Positions 7,216 through 52,900 of a stretch of 64,000 nt of DNA are shown piece by piece; the stretch's first letter is position 1, and every line of letters begins with the position of its first letter. Source of the DNA: Mytilus galloprovincialis (Eukaryota; Mollusca; Bivalvia; Mytilida; Mytilidae); contig NC_134851.1 in NCBI RefSeq assembly GCF_965363235.1, forward strand, positions 23,423,847 through 23,487,846, written 5' to 3'. A program made the translations under genes and the position numbers. The notes under the pieces were generated by a model, which saw only the letters and a program-made list of their open reading frames with translations, did no database searches and was not told the origin of the DNA.

Positions 7216-7222
7216 TCTAGCA

Positions 7223-28440: not shown

Positions 28441-28451
28441 CGTTTTTAGCC

Positions 28452-31400
28452 ATGGATGTCTTGACTGGAGCCCAAACAGAAAAAATAATTCAAACATTGG
28501 TAGACATGAGGGAGCGTGTTCGTATAAGGTAGGTATTTGTGTAAAGCACATATTACAATACATTTTCGATATTTTCAATATTATAGAACGCTCAAAACAA
28601 ATTACATCAAGTGTAGGTTACAATTACATAAAAATAAACACAAAAATTGTATACTTTTAACTTGTTAATTACTAGTTAGAAGAAATTATGTATACCATAG
28701 GAGGCCGCATAGTCAAAACAGTATTAAATAATATGTTTCTGATCGTCTGATATTTTCAAAACATTTGTTTAAGTGAAAATACTTTACGTACGGGTACAAA
28801 AAGTAAAATCACAAAAATACTAAACTCAGAGGAAAATATAACGGGAAGTCCATAATCACATGGCAAATTCAAATGACAAAACGCAGAAAAGCTAATGGAC
28901 AAGAACTGTCATATTCCTGACTTAGTACAGGCATTTTCAAATGTAGAAGATGGTGGATTAAACCTGGTTTTATAGCGCTAAACCTCTCACTTTGATGACA
29001 TTCTCATCAAATTTTGTTATAATTACAATATTTACAAAGTAGCCATCTGATTTTGCTTTGGGTATCCACAACCATAATATACTTGTCCATTGATTTCAGA
29101 CAACAAGAAGTGCCAACAACAGAAGAAATATATTTGAATGAAAGTATAACAAATGTGCAGACTTACTTAAATATGCTTTCAGAGAGGTATATATTTAACA
29201 TTTTCCTTTTTTGAAATTCGTAACAAAACTCATTATAGATACCAAGACTAAATTTTGTATATACCCCAGACGTGCGTTTCGTCTACATAAGACTCATCAG
29301 TGACGCTCGAATCCAAAAAAGATAAAAAGGCCAAATAAAGTACGAAGTTGAAGAGCAGTAAGGACCAAAATTCCTAAAAGTTATGCCAAATACAGCTAAG
29401 GTAATCTATACCTGAGGTAGATAAGTCTTAGTTTTTCAAAAATTCTAAATTTTGTAAACAGTTAATTTATCAATATAACAAAATCAATGATATTTCATGT
29501 CAGCACAAAAAGTGCTAAAAGGGGACACATAACAAAAGGGACATTCATACAGTAAAAAAACCTGACAAAAGCGATCAGGAAAACATAGAAACAAAGACAT
29601 AAAGAGTCAAACTGTTGTTTAGTGGTTGACTTTTGTTGGTGTGGTTCATGAATGTTTCTCATTATTCCTATTTTTATAGATAAGATTGTTAGTTTAACAC
29701 GAGCCATTGTAGGGTCCTTTATATCATGGTGTGGAGAACTATCTCATCGGCACTCATACCACATCTTTGTGTTTCTAAAAAAAACAACCTAACGTATACA
29801 ACACACACTTGTGTTTTGGACCGAAAAACGAGGGAAAAAGTTCAAATAAATGGCAAACATGATGAAATGAAACGGAAAGAACAAACGAAGGAGGGTTGAT
29901 TCTTGAAATAAAGACTTATGGTTAAATTTCGTGGAATATCCACATGACCAATAGTCATCACAAACCAAACACCAAACACTTTTAAAACGGTTACATATGA
30001 CAATGAGTTATAAGCGTTGAATTGGCAAAAAGATTCTTTGTTGTTTTCGTTGAGGAAAGTTCATGCCAACAGTGCATTACCAATTTGTAAAACTAATAGG
30101 ACCAATTAAAAGATAACCCGGTAATGTTAATTATCTATCAGTTTCAAAGAGAGACCATACTTAACCCCTTTTCTCCCCCCCCCCCCCCAAAAAAAAGAGA
30201 AGCGGAAACCCAGTCGATTAAAAAAATACAAACAAGGAATATTTTTCAGGGATGTTCTTGTGTGTGACAAGGAAACTATAGGAATAATACGGAGACTGAA
30301 GCAAAACCTTAAATTTGTATCAGAAAACAGGTTTGTATATGTTTTCTCTAATTCTTCGTTAATTTATCCCTTTCTGCACCCATTGTATAACAAAAAATTA
30401 ATCAACGTGTGGTTCGTTTGATCTCAGTTCTTCATTGGTTAAAATCCGACTATGACGTCGAATTTTCTTGCTTTCCTCTTAATTGCCTAGTGTGACGGCA
30501 TGACAAAAGCCGACCATGCCCGATGACGTCACATAGAAAGAACATATCCTTTTGCAGATCATTCAAAAAAAAAGGAATAAGTTTGCCTGCATATTGTTTG
30601 AAAATCATTAAAGAAACAGATTCCACCACCAAATCTCGTGTAATACGATATTTATCCACTCTCGACATTTAAATTTTAAATATTCAAAACGCTTGGCGAG
30701 CCTCGCGTTTTAAATTTGAAAATTAAACTGTCTCAAGTGGATACATATAGGATCACACTCGATGCAGTGGTAGAATCTATATATATATGTTGAATCGAAA
30801 TATACGAACAATGATCATTTCAATCAAATAATCGATCCATCTGTTTTCATAAAGGTAAATCTGTCAATTGAAGTCTATATTCAATGTCATATCTTATGCA
30901 AAGTGTGATTTATGTAGTTTAAATGTTTAATTATATGATAGAGGCAATTGTAGTATAACCATGGTAGTTAAGAATAAAAAAAATCGGAAGCCTTTAAACG
31001 GTGTTAACTACTGCTTAGAAATGGGAAAATGAAATTATCATGTTGATCAAAGTATCTAGTTTGAAGATATATATGTGTGTCAATATCTAGGAAAAGATCA
31101 ATATCATTACCAAACCTTGTTTTTTTAGAAGTATTGTCAGTTTCACGTTTGCCGGTGAATATGAGATGTAGCATTTCAACTTGATCATTGAGAGGCATTA
31201 CATCATCAAGTCATCGAAAAATTAAATTAAAGAATATCGCAAGATGCATTTTTGTTTTGAATTCGAAAACGTTTTGTATGAACTGTTGTTCATATAAGTG
31301 CAGACAAAGTTACCCAGTAGTCATGAACAAAATAGTACCAATGGAATTCCGTAGTCAGTTAAACATGGCGTCATAGTGATAAAGCTGTTCGTTTATTAAA

Positions 31401-31964
31401 TAAACTCATCATAGATGCCAGGATTAAAATTTTATATTACGACAGACGCGCGTGTCGTTTACAAAAGACTCATCAGTGACGCTCGAATAAGAAAATGTAC
31501 GAAGTTGAAGAGTATTGAGGACAAAAAATTCCTAAAAATTTGGCAAATGCAGCTAAGTTAATCTATTCCTGAGGTAGAAAAGCCTTAGATTTTTCAAAAA
31601 TTCAAAGTTTTATTAATAGTTAATTTATAAATATGAACATACCAAAGATAACTCAAGTCAACATATCAGAAGGAAAAACTTCTTCTGTCAAATGAGACAC
31701 GTATCATTACCTTAGTCAGAAAGTCAACACCCTTCATGGGCTAGATGATGTTTCACTTATTATATTATTATAATATTCCACGAGAAAATTAAAACTCTAA
31801 CGTTTGGCATACTAAGACATATTGTCAGTGTTACTTTTTAACTTTTAAAATATACTTTTTTTCTCCAGATACACTAAATCAGATTTTAATCTAAAAATGA
31901 TGGTGAACGGATTACAAGAAAAACTGACCACAATGCTAAAGAAATGTAGAAAACCTGTGGAAAG
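28452..31964 (+). CDS. Gene B exons 1-4: N-terminal helical block
   Basis: Exons 28452-28528, 29100-29186, 30250-30330 and 31869-31964 encode residues 1-113: MDVLTGAQTEKIIQTLVDM, SITNVQTYLNMLSERD, GIIRRLKQNLKFVSENR and LKMMVNGLQEKLTTMLKK. They align with gene A without gaps except for one extra codon in exon 2. Substitutions keep the hydrophobic pattern of the helices (for example LNIL to LNML, IIQRL to IIRRL). No known domain is recognised. All four exons end in phase 2, so losing one would not shift the frame into the linker. Confidence 0.8.
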
Positions 31965-34900
31965 GTTGGTTTTTATAGAATCGTCGCTATTCCTCTTCAT
32001 TGGTAAACTATTTCTTCTGTATGGAGGTGTTGACTTGCAATACAGATTATTCAACTGTTCAACATCCTCAATCTTTCGGTTTACATTTAACATTTTATAT
32101 ATGGTAATGAGACACAAGCATGTTAAATGAAAATACTACTTGTGCAAATCCTAGTAAAGAGGTCATAAAGCTGATCTAAATAGACTTGTATATAACGAAA
32201 ATCATAGATAATCTTTTATATTTCAAGCCCAAAATGAAAGTAAAATTGTGAAATACAAATGCCTATTCATACCGCTACATAACCTCGTACAAAATATACT
32301 GCTTTTTGTGTTTCGTGCTTATAAAAAGAAACAAAAAGGTATCAAGGAGGTTTAAAAACAAAACGTTAAAGGAGAATCATCAAACACAATCGTTTATGAG
32401 TGAGAATAAACGAAAAGACTGATTTAAAATATATATTGGAATACAGCTTGGATTGTTCCCTCTCCGTCAAAACGGTTGTGCTTTAGAAAGGTCAGCATTT
32501 CATTTTCAAATAGTAATATCTGTAAAATATGAACACTAAAGGAGTAGGTCCAGTAAAGGCTGATTTTGGCCTCAAATTTCACATGTTTCAGGTTCATCTA
32601 AAGAAAGTTTTTGGACACTTTTTAAACACTTAAGTGTCTATTTCAATTGAGTCGATTAGTTTGTGTGAAATATTTTAACTGATTTAGTCATTCAAAACTC
32701 TGTGATTCAAGCTTAAATATGAAAAATCTATCAAATATACCAAAAAACGTCACTTTTCAGATGGTTTTTGTCAAAAATGAAAGTGGTCGCATCCATGTTC
32801 ATCCTCAACCTTTATATATGTTTTGTATTATCATCAAATACAACTTACATTTCAATATTATGAAAGAACACGAATGTGGCCACTTTCATTTAAGACGGAA
32901 ACCGTCTAAAAATTAACCAAAATGCTAAAATTTTGACGATTCCAGTAATTTAGCATGACTAAATCATGTTAATGATGCAAGAACGCGTTATTTGTGCATT
33001 GTATTGTCAAAAACAGCTCATATTTATGTAGCAGAAGCATTTTACTTTCCAAAATATATCTAAAAGAATACTGTTTCACAATTTTCTAAAACTGCTATAT
33101 TTTGGGGTCAAAAAGGGGTCTTTTTAGACACTTATATAAACTTTGAAATATCTATTTAATTGTTGTCAATTGTTATTTTCTCAAATTATCAGTCAAAACT
33201 CACCTATAGAAGAAACAGGTTCAGACCTTAACGACAGTTCAGAGTTTTCCCCTAGGTATGTATTATACGGCTGAAAGGTATGGACTCCGTTTTATTCTGC
33301 TTTGTGGATTTCAATCTGCTAAAGCAAGACAAAATAAAATTACAAGTGAGGCCTTTGCTCAAATGGTGAACACTAAGCGGTACGTGTATTAACAATAACC
33401 ATTTGTAAAGTGCTGTTATTTAATTTGCTGGAAATTATACTAATAAGAAACGAGATATGTTGGTTATATGTTATAACCTTTCTATCAAAAATTAGTTCAA
33501 ATTAATTTTTTTTACAGTTTAAATAGTAAAAAGATTGGCAGGTTTAAATTGGCAAATCTATGAATGTGTGATGATGGCTGACTGATAACATCTGCTTAAT
33601 TTTGTCTCATCAGCAAAAAAACTGCACCGCCTGTTTATTTATATTTTTATTCCAGGCATAGATTACCTTAGCTGTATTTGGCATATTGTTTTGAAAATTT
33701 TGGAACCTTAATGCTCTTCAACTTTGAACTTGTTTGGCTTTATAAATAGTTTGATATCAGCGTCACTGATAAGTCTTATGTAGACGAAACGCGCGTCTGG
33801 CGTACTAAATTATAATCCTGGTACCTTTGATAACTATTATAGAACCACATGTCAGAAAATAACACCAGTATATTTTTTTTATGAAATAATGAAGCGAGAA
33901 AAATAAAAAATGGATAGTTTATAGAATTTATGTGGAAACACAATAACAAAGAGGATTAATTATTTAAAATCTGCTTATCATTTCAATCACACACTGTTTG
34001 TAAAGTAAAAAAAAATGCATATGTTCAGTATATAAACTTTTTAATAGATTTTTTTTCTATCTTATGTGCAGGTCTACAGACTCATACCTGACTTTTATAC
34101 AACAACAGACAGGGAATGGAAGAAGACCAGATATTATTGAGTATGTTTGAACAATACAACAATACAACAATTTGTTCATATGTTTTAAAGAACATTTTCG
34201 AAGTCCTTACTGGCGATGGACAGTAGATTGAAATTTATGTTTTGTCGCATTTTTTCCCTTTTATAATTCATTTTATTAACTATTTGTTCTGATTATTGAT
34301 GAAAGTGGTACAGTGACCCATTTATATATATGCAAAATTTAGGTCAAAGAAACGATGTTGGTCAGAAAGTTGAAAAATTATTATCAAGCATGTGTCAAAG
34401 TAATGGGATTTTTTTTATTTGATCAAAAACGTTAAAATACCCATGTTATAAAAGAGGGACGAAAGATACCAGAGTGACAGTCAAACTCACAAATCGAAAT
34501 TAACTGACAACGCCATGGCTAAAGATGAAAAAAAAGACAAACAGAAAAACAATAGTACACATGAAACAACATAGAAAACTAAAGAATAACACGAACCCCA
34601 CAAAAAACTAGGGGTGATCTTAGGTGCTCCGGAAGGGTAATATATGCACGGTTTGCATTCCCAACAAAGTTGATGTATTATCCCTTTTATTTTTAGGTCA
34701 ACAGATATCTTCCAGCGAAGGACGGAAGAACAATGTGCAGAGTTGCCTGGGTTTGTATAATTTTCTCTGTTCTATTTTATCACTAGTGGTGAAGATAAAT
34801 TAAACTTAAAGGGGTTTATCTCGTTAACATCAATATCACAAGTAAGATAACAAAATTACCGAGCTCCGAAAAAATTGAAAATGGAAAGTCCGTACTCAAA

Positions 34901-37900
34901 TCACAAAATCATATTTTTAACTTACTACATAATTGTATCAACATTAGCAAACATGACAATTTCGTCAAGTAAAAGTATGTACCGAACACCAACTGTATAG
35001 TTTTATTGTTGATATTCACACCACCTGTGCCAAGTTTGAGAATAGTTTTATTGATATACAAAAAAAAATCCGTGGTATTCCTTAACGGAAGATTATACAT
35101 ACAAAAAAAAGTATACTTTAAAACAAACCACATCTTCCTATATCTAAGAAGGCGTCATTCCGAAATGCGGATACTTAAGTCCGTGATACTTAATACTTGA
35201 AATCACGTTAACACTCAAGAGTTTGAACAATCAATCACAATGAATCATTCTACATATTTGTTAACACAGTTTTCAGTTAAAAACAAAAACGATTAACTTT
35301 GCAAGCATAATAATGTTTGTATTCCTTTACATTTTACATTTTTGTCTATTTTTTAGACCATCTAATAACTCCCCGAAGTTGACCAGAGGAAAATATACTA
35401 ATATTCCTAGGCCTAGGTTTGTATGAACTTTTTCCTTTTGACACACAAAAAGCAATCATTAAAAAGATACCTGGTATAATTTGGAACGCCCTACGCCTGT
35501 TTATTTTTAACCAATATACTCCTAGTCATCGCTCGAATCAGTTGGGAGGCAAAACAAAATATGTTCCATGTTACAAAATGGAAAACAACACTTTTGATAA
35601 TTTATTGCGTCCGAAGCGCTTTTCTGGATTTACCTTCACCAAAAACGCTCAATGCCAAACATTTAAAATCCGAAGATGTATAAGTACCGTATTAGTTTCA
35701 TAATAACTTCAAAATTTATAAACGGACAATTTTAGTAAAGTTTGTAAAATCATGTCAGTACCGAAGCACTGACTACTGAGTTGATGATACCCTCGGGGAC
35801 TGATAGTCCACCAGCAGAGGTATCGACCCAGTAATGTAAAAAATTGCAAACTACACGTTTACTACAGACATAATTGATTGTTTTAACATACTGATCTGGG
35901 ATGTCGAAAGAGCCTATAATATTAATAAGTTTGGATAACTGACACAAATCACAATGCAATGACCTACATTCACGTCAATTGATTTTTGTGGTAAGGTGTT
36001 TCCTATGCAATCATGCCTCATCGTTTTATTGTCAAATTAAATGTTTTGTTGACACGTTATTGCATTAATTGGTAATGCAAGATTTAGAAGTCAGTACATC
36101 GGTGTTAACATGAATATCAATAATGTGGTAATTTTTATAAATTTCCTGTTTACAAAACTTTGAATTTTTCGAAAAACTAAGGATTTTCTAGTCCCAGGAA
36201 AAGATTACCTTAACCGTATTTGGCACAACTTTTTGAAATTTTGGATCCTCAATGCTCTTCAACTTTGTACTTGTTTGGCTTTATAACTATTTTGATATGA
36301 GCGTCACTGATGAGTCTTATGTAGACGAAACGCGCGTCGGGCGTACTTAATTATAATATTGGTACTTTTGATAACCATTTACACCACTGGGTCGATGCCA
36401 CTGCTGGTGGACGTTTCGTCCCCGAGGGTATCACCAGTCGAGAAGTCAGCACTTCGGTGTTGACATGAATATCAATTATGTGGTCATTTTTATAAATTTC
36501 CTGTAACAAAACGAAACGCGCGTCTGGCGTACTAAATTACGATCCTGGTATTTTTGATAACCACTAGACGTAAACACGCTGGGGAAAAGTTTGAGCTGTT
36601 AATTCAAAATCACAATTCAATAAAAAAAAAGATGTCGAAATTCTAACGAGTGTTGGTTTGCCTCTCGATTTGAGTTGAGATATTCTCTATATTTTTTTTA
36701 ATTGAAGGTCAACACAAATTGGTCAGCCGGCGAGAGAAGATCATTGTTTGGAGATTTCTAGGTTTGTATATATTTTAATAGATTATGTTTCTTTCTACAC
36801 TGTATGACAAAATGGAATCAAGAAAAATTTACCCAGTAACATTAAACATAATATGCTGCTTCCCTTTTTTTTTATCCTCCTCCCTAATTTACATAATCAG
36901 ACATACATATTTCCTTAAAAGGACTGACGAATGGCTAATAAGTCGTTCGATGTATACATTTTGTTCATATTTCTTTATGGTTTCATTTATTTTCCCAATT
37001 GAAGGTTAACAGATATCGATCAACAGAAGACGGAAGAAAATTGTACAGAGAGTTCTGGGTGTGTATGCTTTTTTCATTTATAATTGAATACACATGTACA
37101 GATATTCATTTTTTGCAAGTTTTTTCAATGACATATCACGTATATCCCATCACATGACTGTATGAATTATTGGAATAAATAACTTTGTCAATCTGATCTT
37201 TAGTGAGTTAAACGTGTGTTTAATCTCAATAAAACAGATCGTTTCTAACCCACTTTTTCAAAAATGGTCGGTCTATAAACAAAAATTACCTACACACACC
37301 AGGCAGCAATACATGTATATATCAGCGGGTCACTTTCCCTAATATAGTAGCACTAGCTCGTGCATGAAAAAATGGGCTTTATTTTTGTCAAAAGGAAGTT
37401 ACAGATCGTATTTTTTTACATATCCAGTTTTAATGAGGCACAATTCAAATACATGACGAATCGGTCAACTTTCTATAAAAATAAAAGAGTGTTTATAAAA
37501 GCGCAAAACCTTATGAAGTGCACTACGGTCTTGGTTTTTATATACTAGTAAAGTTTTTTTATATACAGCTCAACATATAGATCAAAGAAGAAGACAGGAG
37601 AAACATCCACAAAGAGACCAGGGTTTGTATAGATCTTTCTTTTTATAAACCTCGTAACATGCCCACTGACAAATGGAAATACAATCCAAATTAATCAGAT
37701 ATAAATGTATATACTCCGAAATAACAGTCACAAGTTTTGGATCCACAAAACTCTAAATTGGCACTCAAATCCAACGCCAAATCAAATATTGTTGACAGGG
37801 ACGTCTATGAATTTCATGTTTATTCGCAGTTAATCCTTATTTTTACCCAAGGGATGAGATTATCACTTTTGAGTATGAATGTGTGACCGGCATAACCATT

Positions 37901-40900
37901 CGGATCACTATAATAAGATTGAACAATATTGTGGCCAAGTTTGATTTAATTTGGCCTAATATTTTCAAAGGAGAAGACTTTTGTAAAAGTTAACGACACG
38001 ATGGACGACGGACGCAAAGTGATGAGATTGCTCACTTTGTCACTTTTATCAAGTGAGCTAAAACACGATAAAGAAACTGATGTATAGTAAATACGAATCC
38101 AGAAATGCCCCTCGAATGCTTGACATTTATAAAGGGTTGTACTCACTCTTTTGAATGAGGAAAATTTCGGTTCAGTTGATATATTGAGTCCGATTGGCGA
38201 CTTTACTTGGTTTCTTGAGAAACGATGACACACTCTTGACAATAGCTTGCTCAATCGGTCAACATTTTATAAAAATGAAATGAATTATTAATAAAAGCGG
38301 AAAACCTTATGAAATGCCTATAGGGCTTGGTTTTTATATACTAGTAACGTTTTTTTTACATACAGGTCAACAAATAGATCAAAGAAGAAGACAGGAGTAA
38401 CAACCACAAAGAGACCAGGGTATAGGTCTTTCTTTTTATAAACCTCATAACAAGTCCAATGACAAAATCAAAATTAATCCGATATAAATAACAGACACAA
38501 GTTTTGGATCCACAAAACTCTAAATTTTGGCACTCGAATCAAATGGTTAATCAAATATCAATGACGGGGACATCTATGAATTTCAAATTAATTCGCAGTT
38601 AATTGTTATTTTTACACAAGGGATGAGCTTATTACTTTTAAATAATCAATATGTGGCCGGCATGACCATTTGAAGCACTTTAATAAGATTGAACAAGTTA
38701 GAAGAGGCTTATATTTTTAAAGCATATTCCCTGGAAAGTTTTGTAACTATCTTGTATATTTTTTTATTTGGCGGGCCTGTTTTTACCAGGTAAGTATACT
38801 GGCATAAACAATACGTAGGTTGCAATATATGTAGCAGAATCTGCTTACCTTTTTGAAGGTATTACCGCTGTTTTTGCTGAGATTCATATTTTCGTAAAAT
38901 TTAATGTTCTATGTTGTTGTTTTATATATATATATTTAGTTGTTGTTTGGTCATTTATTTTCTTTAGTTGCCATGGCGTTGTCAGTTTGACTTTTCAAGT
39001 TTTTTTGGCAACGTACTCTTCCACCTTAATTGGTTTATTATTGATTGTTATCTTTGCTGTTTCTTAACATACAAATACAATGAGATGAGGATTTTATACG
39101 TTTGTACTAGTACACAGATATGGTGTAAAAGTTGTTTTTATTGAATAAACGGTTTAAAGTATTACAATTAATTATTGATTTAGCTGATTGTTGACGACCT
39201 TAGTGTTAACTATAGTTGCGTACATAAACAGCTTCGATCTCTTGTGGAAACGCTCTTCATAAGTATACAAGCCTTTTTCAACTGATTTGTATAGTTCGTT
39301 CTTATGTTGTGCTGTTATAACACTTTCCCAGGTTAGGGGAGGGTTGGGATACCGCATACATGTTTAACCCCGCCACATTAATTATGTATGTGACTGTCCC
39401 AAGTCAGGAGCCTGTAATTCAGTGGTTGACGTTTGTTTATGTGTTACATATTTGTTTTTCGTTCATTTTTTATATAAATAAGGCCGTTGGTTTTCTCGTT
39501 TGAATTGTTTTACATTGTTATATCGGGGCCTGTTATAGCTGACTATGCGGTATGGGCTTTGCTTATTGTTGAAGGGCGTACGGTGACCTATATTTGTTAA
39601 TGTTTGTGCCATTTTGGTCTCTTGTGGACAGTTGTCTCATTGGCAATCATACAACATCTTTTTTTTATTATATATTGTGTATTTGTTCTTACATTGAATG
39701 ATTCAGAAGTTAAGATTTTAATTGGCAATGTTGATAAAGAGGCTTACCATTTGGTAAAAGATAAAACAAGCAATCCACAATGGTCTTAAAATTGAAAGAC
39801 AAAAATTATTACAATTACATATATGCGTCTGAACAGTATGTCGAACCTAAAGATGTGATGTATTAGCTCACCTGGCCCAAAGGGCCAAATGAGCTTTTCC
39901 CATCACTTTGCGTCCGGCGTCCGGCGTCGTCGTCCGTCGTCGATAGCTTTTACAAAAATCTTCTCCTCTGAAACTACTCGGCGAAATTAATCCAAACTTG
40001 GCCACAATCATCTTTAGGGTATCGAGTTTAAAAAATGTGTGGCGTGACCCAGCCAACCAACCAAGATGGCCACCATGGCTAAAAATAGAACATAGGGGGT
40101 GAAATGTAGATTTTGGCTTATATCTCTGAAACCAAAGCATTAAGAGCAAATCTGACATGGGGTAAAATTGTTCATCAAGTGAAAATCCGTTGTTGGGTTG
40201 CTGCCCTGGAATTGGCAATTTTAAGGAAATTATACCGTTTTTTGGTTATTATCTTGAATATTATTATAGATAGAGATAAACTGTAAACAGCAATAATGTT
40301 CAGCAAATCAGTAAACAGCAATAATGTTTAAAAAATCTATCTGCCCTGAAATTTTCAAATGAATCGGACAACCGGTTGTTGGGTTGCTGCCCCGAAATAA
40401 GTAATTTGAAGGAAATTTTGCAGATTTTGGTTATTATCTTGAATATTATTTTAGAAAGAGATAAACTGTAAAGAGCAATAATGTTCAGCAAAGTAAGATC
40501 TACAAATAAGTCAATATGACCAAAATTATCAGTTGACCCCTTAAGGAGTCATTGCCCTATATAGTCAATTTTGACCAATTTTTCGTAAATTTTTGTAATC
40601 TTTTACAAAAATCTTCTCCTCTGAAACTACTGGACCAAATTTAACCAAACTTGGCCACAATCATTATTGGGGTATTTAGTTTAAAAAATGTGTGGAGTGA
40701 CCTGGCCAACTAACCAAGATGGCCGCCATGGCTAAAAATGGAACATAGGGGTGAAATGTAGATTTTGGCTTATATCTCTGAAACCAAAGCATTTAGAGCA
40801 AATTTGACATGGGATTAGATTGTTTATCAGGTCAAGATCTATCTGCCCTGAAATTTTCAGACAAATCAGACAACCAGTTGTTGGATTGCTGCCCCCGATT

Positions 40901-43900
40901 TGGTTATTTTAAGGAAATTTTGCAGATTTTGGTTATTATCTTGAATATTATTATAGATAGAGATAAACTGTAAACAGCAATAATTTTCAGCAAAATAAGA
41001 TCTACAAATAAGTCAACATGACCAAAATTTTCAATTGACCCCTTAAGGAGTTATTGTCCTTTATAGTCAATTGTAAACAATTTTCATAATTTTTTGGTTA
41101 ATTTTTGTAATTTTTTGGGAAATATTTTCCACTGTAATTACTGGGCCAAGTTCATTATAGATAGAGATAATTGTAGCAACAAGAATGTTCAGTAAAGAAA
41201 GATCTACAAACACATTACCATCACCAAAACACCATTTTGTCATGAATTTATCTGTGTCTGTTGTTAATATGCACATAGACCAAGGTGAGCGACACAGGCT
41301 CTTGAGATCCTCTAGTTTTTAATTGTGAATTGATTATGTAGAAGCCGTACAAATCAACTATGAGTATTTTTATATAGATATATAAAAATGCATACATGTT
41401 TTTTTTACCTTGAAGATTTATTTTAATGCCTATTTTTTTTTTAATTTAAAGGTCAACAAATATTGACCAGGATGTTAATGATGGAAAATATTCAGAAATT
41501 CCTAGGTATGTATTAGTTTTATTGTAACACTTACCATTTGGTTTTAATGACAAAATGAAAGTCAGTCATTTCTTTCGATAACATTTATTTAAATATACTG
41601 CTATTTGAATGTAGTAAAATCAGCACACTGGATTCGTTTCTTCCAGTTAAAAAAAACCAACTTGAAGAGCGTTAGCATTTCTAATAAAAAAAATAATTGT
41701 ATTAGCAACAGTTATTTATTGATGAATTTATGACGTTAATTATAGAGATAAAAACACCTTTTGAAAAGACAACCGTCAACTTATTTGTAAAAATATGTTT
41801 ATTGCAAAAGAAAAACTTGATGATACAAGCAATAAATACACCTTATCGCTAATCCAGGCTGACCTGGCCGCTTAAACTTTTGACGCATACAACAATCACT
41901 TTTCCATTGTGGCGTCAGATATTTTGATTTATGACGTCAAAAGTTTACGGGAACCTGTGTGATATCCAGTAATGGCGAACAAATAGCGATTAGGTGTATG
42001 GTTTAATTCTTTAAAATTTCATTTGTTTTTTGTCATCTAAAGGTCGACACAAATCCCAGAGCAGAATATGAATGAACAACGTACTGAGATTGTAGGGTGA
42101 GTATGATATCTATTATTTAGATATTTTCATAAGTGTTTCTCGTTTCTCGATTTTTATATAGATTAGACCGTTGGTTTTCCCGTTTGAATGGTTTTACAGT
42201 AGTACTTTTTTGGGCCCTTTATAGCTTGCTGTTCGGTGTGAGCCAAAGCTCCGTAATGAAAACCGTACCTTGACCTATAATAGTTAACTTTTATAAATGG
42301 TGATTGGATTGAGAGTTGTCTCAATGGCACTTATACCTTATCAAGCTATATCTACTCACAATGATATATTTGAAGGCAGATTGAAAATAATTATATAAAA
42401 AACTAGAGGCTCTAAAGAGCCTGTGTCGCTCACCTTGGTCAATGTGAATATTAAAATTTTACGGACGCCATCACGAGTTGGTTGACCGTTATGGAATAAC
42501 CGTTTCACAAATGATATCGGATATGTTCCTCACATCGTAACTACAATTCCCTTCCCTTTCATGAATGTGACCTACCGAATAAGACTATTTACCGGATTAA
42601 AATTTTGTAATCACATAAGCAACACGACGGGTGCCACATGTGGAGCAGGATCTGCGTACCCGATCGGAGTTGTTTATTCTTTAATTTTTCTATGTTGTGT
42701 CATGTTTACCATGTTTTTCTGTTTGTCTTTTTCATTTTTAGCCATGGCGTTGTCAGTTTGCTATAGATTTATGAGTTTGACTGTCCCTTTGGTATCGTTC
42801 GTCCCTCTTTTAAACAAAGGAAGCAGATGGATTCATGACAAAATTGTGTTTTGGTGATGGTGATGTGTTTGTACGTCTTACTTTACTGAACATTCTTGCT
42901 GCTTACAGTTATCTCTATCTATAATGAACTTTGCCCAGTAGTTTCAGTGGAAAATGTTAGTAAAAATTTGCAAATTTTATAAAAATTGTTAAAAATTGAC
43001 TATAAAGGACAATAACTCCTTAGGGGGTCAATTGACCATTTCAGTCATGTTGACTTATTTGTAAATCTTACTTTGCTGTACATTAGTGCTGTTTAAAGTT
43101 TATCTCTATCTATAATAATATTCAAGATAATAACCCCAAAACAGTAAAATTTGCTTAAAATTACCAATTTAGGGGCAGCAACCCAACAACGGGTTGTCTG
43201 ATTCATCTGAAAATTTCAGGGCAGATAGATTTCGACCTGATAAACAATTTTACCCCAGTCAAATTTGCTCTTAATGCTTTGCTTTTTGAGTTATAAGCCA
43301 AAAACTACATTTTACCCCTAAGTTCTATTTTTAGCCATGGCGGCCATCTTGGTCGAATGGCCGGGTCACCGGACACATTTTTAAACTGTCATCGGACACA
43401 TTTTTAAACTAGATACCCCAAAGATGATTGTGTCCAAGTTTGGATTAATTTGGCCCAGTAGTTTCAGAGGAGAAGATTTTTGTAAAAGATTACTAAGATT
43501 TACGAAAAATGGTTAAAAATTGACTATAAAGGGCAATAAATCCTAAAGGGGTCAACTGACCATTTCGGTCATGTTGACTTATTTGTAAATATTACTTTGC
43601 TGAACATTATTGCTGTTGACAGTTTATCTCTATCTATAATAATATTCAAGATAATAACCAAAAACAGTAAAATTTCCTTAAAATTACTAATTCAGGGGCA
43701 GCAACCTATCAACGGGTTGTCCGATTCATCTCAAAATTTCTGGGCTGATAGATCTTGACCTGATAAACAATTTTACTCCATGTCAGATTGGCTCTAAATG
43801 CTTTGGTTTTTGAGTTATAAAAATCTAAGCCAAAAACTGCATTTTACCCCTATGTTCTATTTTTAGCCACGGCGGCCATCTTGGTTGGTTGGCCGGGTCA

Positions 43901-46900
43901 CGCCACACATTTTTTAAACAAGATACCCCAATGATGATTATGGCCAAGTTTAGTTTAATTTGGCCCAGTAGTTTCAGAGGAGAAGTTTGTTTGTAAAAGT
44001 TAACGACGACGGACGACGGACGATGGACGACAGACGAGGGACGCCAAGTGATGAAAAAAGCTCACTTGGCCTTTGGGCCAGGTGAGCTAATAATGGTACC
44101 AGGCGTATAATTTGGAAAAGGGAGATGTGCATTTCACGTTTGCAGGAATATATAGAATGCGAAATCGAATACGAAATCCAAACGGTCGTCCTTCATTTAT
44201 ATGCATGCACAATGCGGTATAAAAGAGGGACGAAAGATACCAAAGGGACAGTCAAACTCATAAATCTAAAACAAACTGACAACGCCATGGCCAAAAATAA
44301 AAAAGACAAACAGAAAAACAATAGTACACACGACACAACATAGAAAACTAAAGAATAAACAACACGAACCCCACCAAAAACTAGGGGTGATCTCAGGTGC
44401 TCCGGAAGGGTAAGCAGATCCTGCTCCACATGTGGCACCCGTCGTGTTGCTTAAGTGATTACAAATCCGGTAAATAGTCTAATTCGGTAGGTCATATTCA
44501 TGAAAGGGAAGGGAATTGTAGTTACGACGTAAGGAACATATCCGATATCATTTGTGAAACGGTTATTCCATAACGGTCAACCAACTCGTGATGGCAGCAA
44601 ACCTCTATCAAGAAAATCATGATAGGAAATGCAAGCACGGGAATATCGTATCAATTGGGAGATATATACCCCGTATGCAGGTGCTGCTGGAATGTTGCTA
44701 CTTAGAAATGGAAAGTTCACAATTGGAAAGCTGAAATCATCTCTTTTGTCGTAAAGTTTTGTTTTGTTTTCAACCGACCCTTATTGTCAATTTCTAGATG
44801 TAAGTCAAGATATGAAGCCGACATAACTGTATCTGTAGTATCCTTTATCTCTAGTTCGATTGGATAGATGCGTTCCACATAGTCACCAAATTTTGAATTG
44901 TTTAGTGAAAGAACATCATCTATATAGCGGAAAGTAGAGTTAAAGGATATTGCTAACTTCTTATCTTTCTTCCTAAGAAGTTCCTGCATGAAGTCAGCCT
45001 CATAATAATAAAGAAACAAGTCGGCGAGTAGAGGGGCACAGTTTGTTCCCATTGGAATGCCGACAGTCTGTTGAAAAACACGTCCTCCGAACGTAACAAA
45101 TATGTTGTCAATCAAGAAATCAAGCATCTTGATAATATCAGTTTCAGAGAATTTTTTGTTTGAATCAGAGTGATTCTTTACAAAGTAGGATTTATCCCTC
45201 CCTAAGACAAGATACTTGTATCTACGTTGGCCATTCTTTTTTATGAAGCAAAGTAATATCAACTCTTTCAATTTGTCTTTTAGTTTGGAATGTGGAATAC
45301 TTGTGTACAGGGTAGAAAAGTCAAATGTTTTAATACTGTTACAAGATGAAAGAGAGTTAGATTGTATGTACTCTAAAAGATCTTTTGAATTTTTAAGTAT
45401 CCACATCTGATTCACGCCACCTCTAGAATAGGCAGTTTCACAATAACTTTGAAGCCCGTCTTTGATTGCTGATAAAATAGATGTTAATAATTTAGAAAGA
45501 GGTTTCGTGGAGCACTTGGAAGACCCAGCAATATACCGTTGTTTGTAAGGACACTTATGTAGTTTAGGTATCCAATACAGTGATGGAAGATCCAGTTCTT
45601 CATCTTTGGTTGAAATTCCAAAGGAACATAGAACAGACCTATGATTATCCAGGATTTCCTCTTTGGTAAGTGTCGTGAGGGTATATGTTGAGTTACCAAG
45701 TGAATTGTCAATACCTAATTCGTTTATCAAGCAGTTGATGTAGTGACTTTTACACACAAAAACGATGTTATTTGGGGCTTTATCTGCAGGGACAACAACA
45801 TATTTGTCATGGAGGTCGGATAGGTGTTTTGCAACATTTGGGTCTTTAAAGATAGACGTAGCATGGGCATTGATGGACCCATTCAGTTTCTTAATTCTGA
45901 TTTGTATCAACGACCTCACTGCCTTAATCCATTCGGAAAGAGTGTCTACGTCTTCCTTCTCGCGCTTAGCCCATTGCCTGGCATAATCCTCGACTGAATC
46001 CATCAAAATTTTAAAGTTGTAATTCCAATTGATGGATTTAGGCTCACGATATTTGGGACCTTTCGATAACACATTTCGTAGAGAAGTGTTATTAACAATG
46101 TTAAGGTCACCGGTAATGACGTGGCCAGCAGGATTATATGTGAATTTGGAACTAGCACAAGTGCAATCAGGAGGTTTAGACTTGAAGTCGTCAATATCGA
46201 GATCCTGCAAAACGCGTTTGTAATTGAAAATTTTAGTTGCAATAGGTTTGGTATAGGTATAAGAAATTATTGGTACAGACTGGTCTTTGAAATAAGGAGG
46301 TATTTTCGATTGCACTAATTTATGATGAAGGATATTGCCTAGGTTGACGCCATCGAGACCTTTGTTGGCAAAGGAAAGATTAAGAAAAAATCTTTTCTCT
46401 TTTTCATCTTTTCCAATGCGAACTGGCTTGAAAAGTCTGTGACTTGCAATATCCGAAATTATAGCTTCAAGTTTGTATTGGTTTGAATGAGGGTTTGTAA
46501 CAGTGGATTCCAAACATAAATTGAACAGAGAATGAAGTTTCGAAAGGGGTAATGAATAAAGTTTCGTGCGAATGTGATGAATACCTAACGGCTTTTGTAT
46601 GAATGGCAGCAAGTCATTAATAGAGACATCATGCAGAGAAGGTGATGTATAATGACGATGACCATGACTGCGTCTACGTCGAGGAGTCGAGTTGAAAATA
46701 TTCATCACATTCACCGAGTTACACGAAGGACTAGATAGAATACCTATACCATCAATTTTGTCATTGCAGCCATAAGGTGTTGCAGTTCCCAATTGTCTAA
46801 TCCAGTAGTCTTCTTTTTGTCTACGGAGAGTCGTTGAAAGATTAGGATTGTTAGAGCTATGGTATATCTTTTCGATAATGCGAACTGTCATAGAAACGAT

Positions 46901-49900
46901 GGAATGATCGGGCTGATTGAAATGCTGGTATAGAATGTCGTTAGCATTAAGGTTAATGTCTGATCTATGACCGCACATACGTTTGGTAAGCCTTCCTTTC
47001 GTTTCACCGACGTATACCAATCCGCAAAGGTTGCACTCTAATCCGTAGACGACATTTATCGATATAGATATCGATATAGATATATAATTTTATACATATA
47101 GATGCTGATAGTGCTATATTCGTCTTCCTAACATTTAGAGTAATAATGTCTGACCGGCATGACAATTTAATGACCGTTAGAATAGAGAGCAAATCAAGAC
47201 GCTTTCAATTTTATGTAATGTTCCCTGGCTAGGCTATTTGGAGGTACAATTTCTGAAATATGTTAAATACAAAATCTGATTTATTAAAAAAAAGACTGTA
47301 TTTTACAGATTGTGGCTTTTTGAGTATAAAATTTAGTGCATGAAGATACCCGCGTCATTTTTCATACCTTCGTTATCAGTTGAGAACACAAACATGAATG
47401 TACTAGACAAGTTAATACATGTTCACTTGTACAATATCTGTACACATGGTAACGACGTATCTAAATTTGTCGCATGTAAAACAGAGTTCAATGCATTATG
47501 AAATGTAATAAGAATACTAAATCACTGGAACATGGTTGAGATGAATCACACTGTGTAAGCATTATTTTTTTAGAGCTTTCTACGACATTGGATGCGGATT
47601 ACAACTTTATTCAGAATCAGACGTCTCCGAAATTATTCAGGCAATACGATGGGAATCGGATGATTTTCAACGTTTGTATAAAGAAGACACAACGTTAAAA
47701 CAATACAAGCTGGAGACAGATTTTTTTAATATCAAGCCAAAAGATCCCAAATACAAAGGGAATTTTCCGAAAGATAGTTTGGGCATGATCACTGTGAAAG
47801 TAAAGCTTCCAAATGACATCAACTACCAGTTTCTACAGTTGAAAGCCTACATTAAATTTGGACAAAAGTGGAACATGGTAGAAACGTCTTTCAAGGTAAC
47901 TATGGAATAAAAATATGGTCCCCTAACGATTTTTCGAAGGAATAGAATAATGGTCAATTTTGTCTCCTTCTGACAGGCATGATCACCTTTATCAAAGTGT
48001 GGCGATGCTGGATATTAGTATTTAAGGTGGTATCCAACACCTTCACTTAACTTCATTTGGCTCGTTTAATTTTCATAAAATTTTGACAAAGTATTTACTT
48101 TGACCCTTTAACAAAAATATGAAAATTTCAAAAAATTTTAACCAACCAATTGATCAGAAAAAATACACTGGTTATAGCAATTTGGCAATTTTGATCATTG
48201 AGAAGCTTAATATCCCTTTTACAACACAACGTAATTAAAACGTTTAACTAACTTTACAGAGTTGTCATCCCGGTAGTGTTAGGTACCACCTTAAGAAAAC
48301 TCCTTTGTTAATTCCATAATTTAAAATAGGGCAGTTGTATCCTACCACGCAGAATAAATAATTTTGCATGAAATTGGAATGATTATATTTATTTCTGAAA
48401 TAAAGTTTTGTTAAGGTATCGCCTTGAATTGGTATTCGTTATTTGATTATTTTGAACTATCTATTTTTAAGAGGTATATTTAGTTTTTAATTTTTATTAA
48501 ACAGGTTGTAGGTAAAAACCTATGGCAATTTTTAGCTATGGTGAAATTATTGTCCCTTATTATGATATTTCATTGATTATTTCATCTTAATCGCTAAATA
48601 AGTAAACACAAGCCTTCATTCAAATCGCTTACCAGTTTCAAAGTTTCAAGTTCTTTTAAAACAATTAGACTTGTGTTCTAGCAGACAAGTGGTGTGTTAA
48701 ATATTTTAAAAAATACGCAACATTACAAAATAAACTTGACTGTCGTTTTCTTATTATTTTGAAATTATTTTAGGAGAAATCTGTCACGTTTCAAACTGCT
48801 AAAATAGACGCACTCTGTATTGTTTCAAAACCAATAAAGGAACGTATACACATCACACCAGATGGTTGCAAGTATGTTGCAAAAACTGACAAGGGCATTC
48901 AAATAGAGTTTCCCCCTGGTGCAGTTGAAAAAGATGAGTCGATTCGTTTACATGTACGTATACAAGTGTTCTATATGTTTAGGTTGCATTTTTGTTAATA
49001 TAGACGATACAATTTACCATATGAACTACTTTTACGGCTAAAACTTGTCATGCTGTTATTTTGTTTTTGTTAAACAGCTTCTACCTTTCTCATATGGAAT
49101 TTTGAGTAAATAGCCAAAATTTTAAGATTGGATAACATTCATCTTTCAAGAGCAATGTATTGTCAAGCAGTCATCTTATTTTGTTGGTGCATATATGAAG
49201 TAGGTAGAACAACCTGTTATACTTAGACATCTTTAACGCATTCAGTATGTAGTAAATTGAGCTTTTGTTTTATGGAGGAAAATATTGAAAAAAATTAAGG
49301 TATAGAACCACCTTATTCAGGCCCGGTCGGAAAGAACATACAAGAAAGTCGTACATATTTAATAGTTCCTTCGCATAGCTGTATTCTTGTCAATAGCGGA
49401 TATATATTTAGGTAGTTTTTTGTACCAAATGCAAGCTTGTGGACTTGGGATCACTGTAGAACCCTTGTTGATAGATTTATTCAAATAATAAAGAAATTAA
49501 TGCAATTATGATAGGAGGGGACATTTAGCCTGTTGTTCAGATCTGAAGTTCCTGTTTTTGTACTGTCAAACTTCCGGGAACCAGCACGCTCTAATATGCA
49601 ATTAAAGGTGTGCTTGAAATTGAGGACAATTACAAAACTGTATGTGTTATACAAATCCTAAATTGATTATTTCATTACAATATCCTTTTCAAACATTCTA
49701 CATCATCTGATATAAAAGATAGAAGTTATATTAACATTCAAATATCTTGTTTTGTCAGGTTGTTCCAATAAACAAGGAAATTTTACAACGACAGTACGAA
49801 GAACGAAATAAGACAGGAGAAGCAATTTTGGCACTGTCCGATTGCTTGTATACTACTGGAGATGCGACCCTGAAGAAGAAGGTTCAAGTCAAACTACCAC

Positions 49901-52900
49901 TAAATGATGTTAGAAAACCCACAGAGTCAGATGAAGACTATGTATACAGACTTTTCAGACAAAACACCAACGGACAATTTACACTGACAGATAACGTGGT
50001 CACGGTTGATGAAGACCACAATGCAGTCTTTGAAACGGATAAGATCTCTGGGTAAATATGGTTAACAATGATTTAATGAGTTGTATGAATAACCAAAATG
50101 GAAAGTCCTTAATCGAGACCACGTGTACTTCACATTGCAGCACCAGATGCGCTTTTTGGAAATGAGGCATTAGGATGGTAAGAAACTGAGCAAATAAATG
50201 CCAAATTATATTAGAAAAGAAGATAGAACTTACACATAACGCCAACGTTGGAAAGAAATGAGATAAAAAAGCAGGAATACAATTTCTTTATTTTAAACAA
50301 TTTTCTGCAATTGAGAACATCCAATATTCCATAACTTAACAACAGTGTTACTGAGTTCGGGGAAATCCTACGAGACAAACGGTTCCATAACAAAGGTACA
50401 CTAAGAGTGGTTAGTTTATTTGAAGTCCAAAGTACTGACTAATGCATCCGAATAATTGTTTGACACATTTGAATATGTTTTGACTATTACATAAGACGAT
50501 AGGTCCATCTAGTAATCAGTTGATCCCTTATATTGTTTGGTTATAGTGTTATTGTTAAACAAATATATGGGTTCAAACACAAGTAAAAAATTTACTTGAA
50601 ATCACAAAATTACTAAAACATACAATAAATTCAAAACAGAAAGTCCCCCACATATCATATTCTTGACTCGGCACAATAGTTATCTTTTGTAGAAAGATTT
50701 AATCTGATTGTTTTAGCATTTATTAACAGAAAGGGGAGCCGGCACACTATGTCAACAACATGGAAAATATCAAACATAAGTCAAATAAGAGTTAGCTATT
50801 GCTGTTAATTTAGTATTGAAATTTAAGTCCGACAACAAGGTTGGACATTGTTTATATGGTAAATAATGTATCAGTGTTCCTTTGCCTTGATGTTTTTGTT
50901 TGAAAAGCTGTTGTAGTTTAGGAGTCTGGTATATTTCTGTGCTGTGATGTTAAACTATTGTTTCAAGTTAGGTATTAACCGTTACTACGATAAAAGGGAT
51001 ACATCGATAAGGTGAATGTTGGCTCCTGTATAAACTTTAAATCCGCTGTGTTCTTTGCACCTGTCCTAAATCATGGTCCTTTATAGCTTGTTGTTCGGTG
51101 TGAGGCAATGCCTCGTATGGAAGGCCGTACTTTTATCCATTTATTACCATTATATATATTTCATATTGATTAAGTACTTTGGTATTCATAACCTGTTTTT
51201 TTTTCATTTTAGAACAAGCGTTTCTCTGATAGGGAATGGCGAACTAAAAAAGGGTCCATTAGTAATATCTAGCAACCTCGAGGAAATGCATGGCTATAAT
51301 TACGTTTGTAAAATCCTATTCTTTGTTAGTGACGTCACTCTACGTTCGCTAACAGTGTTGCTGGCTTGTATTGAAAAATCAAAGATGCAAGCGTTCTGTC
51401 AAAATTGCGAGGAACGAGGATATCGTCTTTTTAAGAACTGGATAAGTAAAGATTTGGTCTTAAAACCTCAAATAAAAATTGACATCGCATTGAAAGGATG
51501 TTTCAGTTTGCCACGTTTCGTTGCAAGGAGAAGATTAGACCTGACATTTTTACCAAACTCGTCGGAGAATTTTACCAGATTTGTAGTAGAAGTTAAACAT
51601 AGAATCGACCAGGATGCATACGGTATTTTGTTACTCACCAAAGATAAGGAGATCATCGATGAAATTAGCTATAATACACATGCATCCTTATCCATTAATA
51701 GAAGAAATACTATGGATCTCGGAGTGGGACGGGAATTGACGTTTATAAAAGAAAGTGATGACAAGCAACCTACACCTTCAGTCAGTAAATACAGTGATGA
51801 AGGTATAAAAAACTATTCGAATACCAAACCAGTAACGAATGTTTTACAATTGTTAAAGCTATATTATATCATGGTTATTACAAATTTTTTTTTCGTTTTT
51901 CGGTTATTTATATGTTTACTGAAGTTTTGTGAGATTACGTCGACTTACGAATATTCACTGCCCGTGCCTATACTATTATCAAGTTTTGAATCAATTTTAC
52001 GCTGCTGAATATATCATTTTATCAATCTGTTATAGAGGATGTTTTTCGTGATGCGTTTTGTCATTTGATTTTGCCATGTGATTATAGATTTTCCGATTAG
52101 GTTTTCCCCTGAGTTTAGTATTTTTGTGATTTTACTTTTTTTCCCGTATAAGTTGTAATTAACATTATCTATTTTATCATATTATTGCTATCTACGAATC
52201 TGGATGATCTAGCAATATAGAATCAAAACATATATTTTTTGATAAAACTAGTATGCATTGTGACTAACTAAAGTAAAACAAATGACTTAACTCCGAAGTA
52301 AATTCAACAAGGGTTAATCCAGGACAACTGTATAAAATTAACGTCATCAACTAATAAAAACAGTAAAAACATTCATATTCCTGCTTGGACAAAAAAAAAT
52401 AAGACTAACGTCTAGATGTATATCTAGCTAAACATCTCTCTTATACGATGGCGGTACTTTCATAACGTTTAATGTGCACTTTACCGCTTATTTTTCCTGA
52501 TAACATATGTTTCATTTCATTTGTTGGAATTTCATTAGACTGAAACTTATTGCTTTTCAATATACATTATATATCTTCACATGATTATTTTTATTTTTTG
52601 ATTATTTCGTAATTCTAAAAGTCTCCATTCCTTCTGCTTTTCCGATATTATGCTCTGCTATACACGAAAAACATTATATATTTGTACTTTTCAGATTTCC
52701 TGACAGACAAGGGTGTGATGGCCGTAGCAAAGTTGCTTAATTCAAACAAAATGTTTGAAACTGTAATAAATCTGGATATGAAACAGGTTCAATATGACCA
52801 GATTTGTGAGAAGGTGTCGATCAGCAGTAGGCAGTCTTTCACACTTCTGAAAACAGCTTTAGATCTACAGAAAAGTAACAAGGTTGAAAAGTTAATATCT

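Follow-up and report, generated by a model that had tools for sequence, protein, structure and literature searches.

An expanded array of linker exons in a death-fold gene of the mussel Mytilus galloprovincialis

How did one gene of a tandem family come to hold ten small exons in a row where its neighbors hold two or three, and what might these exons do for the protein? The question is raised by a 64,000-nucleotide (nt) stretch of the Mytilus galloprovincialis genome (assembly GCF_965363235.1, contig NC_134851.1, here called C14, positions 23423847-23487846, forward strand), which we refer to as the window. It contains two related genes, A and B. In a genome-wide search (1.38 Gb, 331 contigs), the first exon downstream of the linker of gene B had seven matches, which lay in genes B and A, at a third place 8 kb past the end of the window (in gene C), in a decayed copy (two pieces), and in two distant relatives on a contig called C11 here. 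We also analyzed 90 kb downstream and 10 kb upstream of the window, and 80 kb on C11. Genes A and B were modelled from open frames, paralogous exons and GT-AG boundaries; they are thus predictions based on paralog similarity, with models that begin at the start codon and a search for exons that covered the sequence from there on.

The ten consecutive small exons of gene B run from base 33193 to base 42096, as a preliminary description of the locus had it. We number them linker exons 1 to 10, corresponding to gene B exons 5 to 14, so that exons 11 and 12 of the gene bear the names cassette 7 and cassette 8.

33193-33255, + strand: gene B exon 5, linker exon 1; 63 nt, net charge -5
34072-34140, + strand: gene B exon 6, linker exon 2; 69 nt, ends NGRRPDIIE
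34697-34750, + strand: gene B exon 7, linker cassette 3; 54 nt, STDIFQRRTEEQCAELP
35357-35416, + strand: gene B exon 8, linker exon 4; 60 nt, PSNNSPKLTRGKYTNIPRP, net charge +4, the least supported member
36708-36761, + strand: gene B exon 9, linker cassette 5; 54 nt, STQIGQPAREDHCLEIS
37005-37058, + strand: gene B exon 10, linker cassette 6; 54 nt, LTDIDQQKTEENCTESS
37569-37622, + strand: gene B exon 11, linker cassette 7; 54 nt, STYRSKKKTGETSTKRP, net charge +5
38366-38419, + strand: gene B exon 12, linker cassette 8; 54 nt, STNRSKKKTGVTTTKRP, net charge +6, recent duplicate of cassette 7
41452-41505, + strand: gene B exon 13, linker cassette 9; 54 nt, STNIDQDVNDGKYSEIP
42043-42096, + strand: gene B exon 14, linker cassette 10; 54 nt, STQIPEQNMNEQRTEIV

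Seven of the ten are exactly 54 nt long (the lengths are 63, 69, 54, 60 and then 54 six times), all ten are phase 2-2 with an AG acceptor and a GT donor, and together they encode 190 residues, in agreement with the tether of about 190 residues first proposed. The sequence pattern that had been ascribed to the exon ends holds for part of the array. A Ser-Thr start, following the junction codon, is present in 7/10 exons (6, 7, 9 and 11-14), exon 10 reading Leu-Thr; the literal AG/GTCAACA is found in only four (7, 9, 12 and 13), with one-base variants in 6, 10, 11 and 14; and an end in Pro-Gly or Pro-Arg, with the junction codon counted, occurs in six (5, 7, 8, 11, 12 and 13). Using a motif defined post hoc with the 54-nt spacing, the + strand of the window returns the seven cassettes alone and the - strand nothing, while the same motif appeared at 7 places in total across 20 Markov-randomised windows. 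The recurrence of the cassette motif in gene B exceeds chance.

Judged by their sequences, the seven 54-nt cassettes of gene B are clearly homologous, and the divergent 60-nt exon is probably so. We built a nucleotide profile on eight 54-nt cassettes (seven from gene B and one from gene C) with their splice-site flanks, and ran it over 154 kb (the window and the downstream stretch), the 10 kb upstream and the 80 kb on C11. The profile recovered its eight members and also the cassette of gene A, which was outside the training set (40 bits, expectation value E 8.6e-11); all other matches had E >0.2. Among these, the linker-2 exons of B and C scored about 9 bits and linker exon 1 of B 6 bits, and because of these E values the kinship of the 60-nt, linker-2 and linker-1 exons with the cassettes is possible but unproven. 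Linker exon 1 resembles, in its 3' part, the first linker exon of gene C (window-equivalent 68361-68429). Near the two C11 relatives the profile found no cassettes in two 40-kb stretches.

The similarity is concentrated in the exons and their immediate splice sites. Over 27 pairs (the 28 pairs of the eight 54-nt cassettes minus the recent pair 7/8; the 63-nt and 60-nt exons were excluded from this in-register comparison because their lengths differ), mean identity was 57% for the exon itself, 65% for the 15 intron bases that precede it and 80% for the 8 bases that follow it, as against 33% at 16-30 nt upstream and 44% at 8-22 nt downstream. More distant flanks (30-120 nt upstream, 22-112 nt downstream) were 28-29% identical, compared to 28% for shuffled exons. 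Gapped alignment revealed residual flank similarity in a few pairs, for example gene B exons 9 and 13. We also considered whether the cassettes are transposon-borne repeats and rejected this, as nothing but cassettes 7 and 8 came up when 101 bases spanning cassette 7 and its flanks were searched against the genome, although other 54-nt exons that have diverged would be hard to detect in this way.

The cassettes have the look of homologous, protein-coding exons. In all eight 54-nt cassettes the predicted frame is free of stops, while the other two forward frames contain stops in 6/8 and 4/8. By a codon-usage score derived from 2020 domain codons of the three genes, 15/15 linker exons of A, B and C did best in the predicted frame; since stops are penalised in this score, part of the preference is the open frame itself. 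The eight cassettes scored 3.0 to 7.8 bits, seven of them above the best of 17 control intervals drawn at random from the introns of gene B (open 54-nt stretches of the form AG...GT), whose median was -1.3 bits and whose highest score was 3.8 bits. Certain residues recur among the eight, namely T2 (in 8), I4 and E15 (in 6 each), and Q6 and T9 (in 5 each). In the leading codons TCA ACA the silent positions are conserved too, in 7/8 and 8/8 cassettes, which may reflect an exonic splicing signal.

The comparison with the paralogs puts the array of gene B in context, using the following features:

7221-19819, + strand: gene A, 11 exons, 723 residues, the paralog with a short tether
12418-12483, + strand: gene A linker exon 1; 66 nt, ends NGRPPDIIE
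13767-13829, + strand: gene A linker exon 2 (exon A6, its single cassette); 63 nt, STYIDKQKAEEKRTEIPPLP
28450-52990, + strand: gene B, 19 exons, 863 residues
Window-equivalent 65080-77251 (C14:23488926-23501097), beyond the window: gene C, 12 exons, 750 residues

Gene A had been credited with three linker exons and a tether of about 62 residues. We found two exons, encoding 43 residues; the tether of 63 residues and three exons (69, 66 and 54 nt) belongs to gene C. That one gene A linker exon has the cassette pattern was borne out, this being A6, the exon recovered by the profile. A candidate for a third one (13024-13086, 63 nt) was not accepted, being hydrophobic with low splice scores, and of 26 open AG...GT intervals (48-66 nt) screened in gene A only the known two passed simple splice-site filters. 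The last linker exon of gene C (C7, 54 nt, STLIPQTKTEDKRAEIS) is a typical cassette. Genes A and C thus have one cassette each and gene B eight, with the divergent 60-nt exon included, and the comparison supports a longer linker for B than for either paralog. The linker-2 exons of A (12418-12483), B (34072-34140) and C (window-equivalent 69628-69693) share an invariant N-G-R-x-P-D-I-I-E-S-T core that spans the junction to the next exon; this core is a possible binding motif.

The most recent step in the growth of the array involved intron sequence as well. Cassettes 7 and 8 lie within a tandem duplication, with exon starts 797 bp apart; their exons are identical at 50/54 positions, the adjacent intron sequence at 86/99 and 63/70, and sequence farther away at 60/84 and 204/241. 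The other cassette copies are about as diverged as the paralogs are, with a pooled proportion of synonymous differences (pS) of 0.50 compared to 0.41-0.71 in domain exons. An expansion in gene B appears simpler than losses in A and C, because A and C each keep one cassette, but this is not certain. The array in gene B as such is real, a coding-like and duplicated series of linker exons.

The encoded linker is hydrophilic, with a mean hydropathy of 0.347 at net charge 0. This is under the Uversky boundary of 0.413, and the linker is predicted to be disordered on this basis, whereas the N- and C-terminal parts of the protein are above their boundaries. Net charge is unevenly distributed: cassettes 7 and 8 and the 60-nt exon are basic, while the other seven linker exons range from -5 to +1. 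The expectation that any exon combination can be spliced in frame was confirmed, as all 1024 subsets read through to the normal stop, giving 1024 distinct proteins with 57 linker lengths from 0 to 190 residues. However, phase 2 is common to all 14 introns from gene B exon 1 to exon 15 and to their counterparts in A and C; skipping in frame is therefore no sign of regulated splicing, and since the N-terminal exons 2-4 can be skipped in the same way, it carries little information on the cassettes. All ten linker exon lengths are multiples of 3 and the smallest intron among them is 243 nt, so that mutual exclusion is not forced by frame or spacing.

What kind of protein the linker would be part of was addressed through the exons on either side of it.

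28450-28528, + strand: gene B exon 1; start codon, N-terminal region
29100-29186, + strand: gene B exon 2; phase 2-2
30250-30330, + strand: gene B exon 3; phase 2-2
31869-31964, + strand: gene B exon 4; phase 2-2, the N-terminal region ends here
47574-47895, + strand: gene B exon 15; first post-linker exon, DIGCG domain
48774-48953 and 49759-50051, + strand: gene B exons 16-17; ZU5-like stretch, under the Pfam cut-off
51213-51802, + strand: gene B exon 18; conserved domain at the UPA position, UPA identity unconfirmed
52695-52990, + strand: gene B exon 19; death-fold domain, stop codon

The preliminary description had labelled the family ZU5-UPA-death-fold, and the last part of this label is the one that stands; ZU5 is weak and UPA was not recovered. 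A five-member profile of the last exon matched the death domain of Fas over 80/96 positions (E 2.6e-4 to 4.3e-4, three distinct PDB sequences). Taken singly, three of the five members matched CARD_2 (best E 3e-4) and two matched Death (best E 0.019), below or near threshold, and an AlphaFold2 model of the domain (predicted local distance difference test score, pLDDT, 65) gave no fold match at E<=0.001. These profile results support a death fold, of whichever class, for the last exon of the A/B/C family. Death-fold genes are numerous in this genome, given at least 150 matches to the Pfam Death family at E<=0.1 (150 of 217 candidates scored).

For the exon at the UPA position, a nine-member profile matched two PDB sequences at E<=10, neither of them a UPA protein; a Pfam search gave four families at E<=5, UPA not among them; and an AlphaFold2 model had a pLDDT of 30 and was unusable. 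The exon has 12 matches genome-wide, A, B and C included. The nine distant relatives are 28-37% identical in this exon, two of them with stops, and lie at C11:17.57-18.05 Mb, C5:101.18 Mb, and C2:107.55 and 36.22 Mb; two of the places on C11 carry death-fold exons as well. The N-terminal part of gene B (113 residues) is 61-63% identical to those of A and C. It matched no Pfam family above its cut-off, and its best PDB match, MakB, covers just 28 positions (E 0.0043) and is given no interpretation here; genome-wide, all eight matches to this region are inside the A, B, C cluster. HFS is the cleavage motif of autoproteolytic ZU5/FIIND proteins of the PIDD type. It is absent from the A, B and C models, and the FS of A and B (KGCFS) is missing in C.

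We suggest that an expanded array of linker exons, with a role as a tether in a death-fold protein, is on the whole the explanation to be preferred, and we hold it to be somewhat likelier true than false. A, B and C would belong to one death-fold protein family as tandem paralogs, all three of them apparently intact. Genes A and C would keep one copy of a linker exon of 18 to 21 residues between the N-terminal region and the region with the ZU5-like, UPA-position and death-fold parts, while in gene B tandem duplication would have brought that exon to eight copies, the latest event copying flanking intron sequence too. With the cassette exons most likely spliced into the messenger RNA, the product of gene B would contain a tether that is hydrophilic, probably disordered and up to 190 residues long, compared to 43 or 63. 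Such a tether may set how far the N-terminal region can reach towards the death-fold region, or how it folds back on it, much like the linker exon of ankyrin-B. Expression, disorder and the role as a tether are all inferred.

A number of observations weigh against this reading. The 60-nt exon has a codon score of 0.0 and reached only 9.9 bits with the cassette profile (E 0.21). Constraint on the amino acids is weak: the pooled ratio of nonsynonymous to synonymous proportions (pN/pS) is 0.84 in the true frame, compared to 1.36 and 0.91 in the others, and among A, B and C the ratio of the corresponding rates (dN/dS) is 0.07-0.31 in domain exons, against 0.38-1.23 in linker-2 exons and 0.15-0.53 in the cassette exons A6, B14 and C7 (17-21 codons only). 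Cassettes 7 and 8 differ, in full codons, by three nonsynonymous and no synonymous changes, and their exons are without clear excess conservation over the adjacent intron. In a tree of ten cassettes only the pair 7/8 is supported (97; next best 60), and A6 and C7 sit among the B cassettes (support 40), a placement that leaves room for loss in A and C from an older array. No spliced retrocopy came to light, as a genome search with the spliced linker, which like that with cassette 7 has low sensitivity for other diverged exons of this size, gave 12 matches, all of them the query's own exons.

The ZU5 and UPA labels are weak as well. At the FPPGAV stretch of gene B, PF00791 scores 12.2-13 bits where the cut-off is 21; only one of four family members matched it at E<=5, gene A did not match at E<=1, and in a genome-wide search the matches listed comprised 11 places, none within the window. 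Against four clear ZU5-UPA frames from this genome, a profile alignment ran collinear from ZU5 into UPA at E 0.011, with a probability of just 3.8%, and the whole C-terminal profile matched ankyrin-3 in the PDB at a weak E of 0.47. The best Pfam match of the UPA-position exon is to the unrelated PseudoU_synth_2 (2/9 members, E 0.0017, under the cut-off).

The rival that has to be taken most seriously is that a disordered spacer simply tolerates copies of its exons, which then accumulate, so that length has no function. This accounts for the data nearly as well, and while we lean against it we regard it as a real possibility: the pooled pN/pS, the lack of clear conservation of cassettes 7 and 8 over their introns, and the single cassettes of A and C are all what it would lead one to expect. 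On the other hand, the older cassettes retain frame, exact length and splice sites while their introns have lost similarity, and their codon usage remains coding-like. These features indicate that the exons are used, but are no argument for a role of length. It is very improbable that the exons are dead or cryptic and never spliced in; the failure to find a retrocopy genome-wide would fit, but the best codon scores in the predicted frame of all 15 linker exons, the open frame of all eight 54-nt cassettes beside stops in the two other frames, and the conserved splice sites speak against it. We also think it unlikely that each cassette carries a short binding motif, the whole forming a multivalent array of docking sites. 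The recurrent residues and the invariant core of the linker-2 exons would be in line with this; however, I4, Q6 and E15 are missing from cassettes 7 and 8, overall constraint is low, and the conservation of the silent position at T2 suggests an RNA signal as much as a residue.

A further possibility, which we consider tentative and rather doubtful, is that the tether is adjustable, with cells including varying subsets of cassettes and obtaining many lengths and charges from one locus. All subsets would indeed stay in frame without an early stop, the basic cassettes (+5 and +6) among mostly acidic ones could switch the charge, exon 5 has a low acceptor score (4.8), and in UNC5B the skipping of an exon for 11 disordered residues is described as altering ligand response and apoptosis in the pertinent part of the report (PMC8358048). 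Against this, the symmetry of the exons is not specific to the array, given phase 2 in all 14 introns from exon 1 to 15. Cassette splice sites score like those of domain exons (with a matrix trained on these same genes), the lowest donor of the array, that of cassette 8, scoring 7.7, which is no lower than several domain exons (5.7-7.9). There is also no in-register similarity of the distant flanks that would suggest a shared regulatory element, and gapped similarity there is weak and limited to few pairs. More speculative still is the idea of a death-fold switch in a bivalve, in which cassette splicing would select linker length (0 to 190) and charge (through a removable basic pair) and so tune the threshold of an autoinhibited signal, with cassette number shifting fast between paralogs and perhaps individuals; we would not expect this to hold in full.

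The surroundings of the three genes showed several further features. A decayed fourth paralog lies at window-equivalent 134949-140434 (C14:23558795-23564280); its first post-linker exon has stops and a frame break and was matched as two overlapping pieces with stops inside (C14:23558795-23559105), while the next two exons are still similar. Near it, no N-terminal, UPA-position or death-fold exons and no cassettes were found. Intron 14 of gene B contains, in antisense (44720-47089, - strand), an open frame of 790 codons that matches the reverse transcriptase family PF00078 with 24.1 bits (E 3.5e-5), under the curated cut-off of 29.6; it is a candidate Penelope-like or other retroelement. A dispersed element with ACGAAACGCGCGTCTGGCGTACTAAAT or near variants is found in the linker introns (33689-33838, 36230-36379 and 36511-36566), and the region of gene A holds a stretch resembling it. 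Just upstream of the window (C14:23413847-23422417) is a tandem repeat with a unit of 1049 bp, 8.2 copies and 99% matches.

Our searches of the open-access literature in PubMed Central (PMC), in part confined to the matches listed, returned no ZU5-UPA-death-fold family with a cassette array of this kind. The lengthening of a disordered linker by exon duplication is a known principle, here met in a death-fold family for which we found no paper, and gene B would be an example of such a linker growing exon by exon. In PEVK and similar muscle spring arrays, many small exons share one phase. For titin PEVK, the available part of a study describes differential splicing of a repetitive, extended segment as setting elasticity (PMC7370890). 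The linker of gene B is likewise a series of homologous one-phase exons, but it belongs to another protein class, has 10 exons and 190 residues, and its differential splicing is only conjectural. Collagen helix exons form same-phase series with a length peak at 18 residues in which duplication keeps the frame, according to the portion of PMC4838654 on exon structure; gene B shares the same-phase series and the 18-residue size, but its linker has no run of three Gly-X-Y and only 6% Gly. Unlike in Dscam-like mutually exclusive clusters, frame and spacing in gene B permit joint inclusion.

Closer to the protein family itself, TRADD-N proteins, adaptors that are frequently linked to Death-like domains, have undergone lineage-specific expansion in oysters, and certain relatives from invertebrates are fused to a UPA-Zu5 module, as stated in the sections of PMC8195603 that deal with these proteins. 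In ankyrin-B, a small divergent exon before ZU5-ZU5-UPA encodes an unstructured, autoinhibitory linker (PMC3663501, in the passages on this exon); gene B resembles this in having its linker between an N-terminal part and a putative ZU5-UPA module, but has an array where ankyrin-B has one exon and an N-terminal domain of ankyrin repeats, and its ZU5-UPA is unproven. The exon 8 whose skipping alters apoptosis in UNC5B, a ZU5-UPA-death-domain receptor, is by the same partial account (PMC8358048) a single one of 33 nt in the extracellular part of the receptor, and so differs from the array in gene B. As far as these passages on ankyrin-B and UNC5B go, linkers connected with ZU5-UPA or death-domain proteins can control activity, and the paralog tethers of 43, 63 and up to 190 residues would provide a natural length series for the effect of a tether on death-fold signalling.

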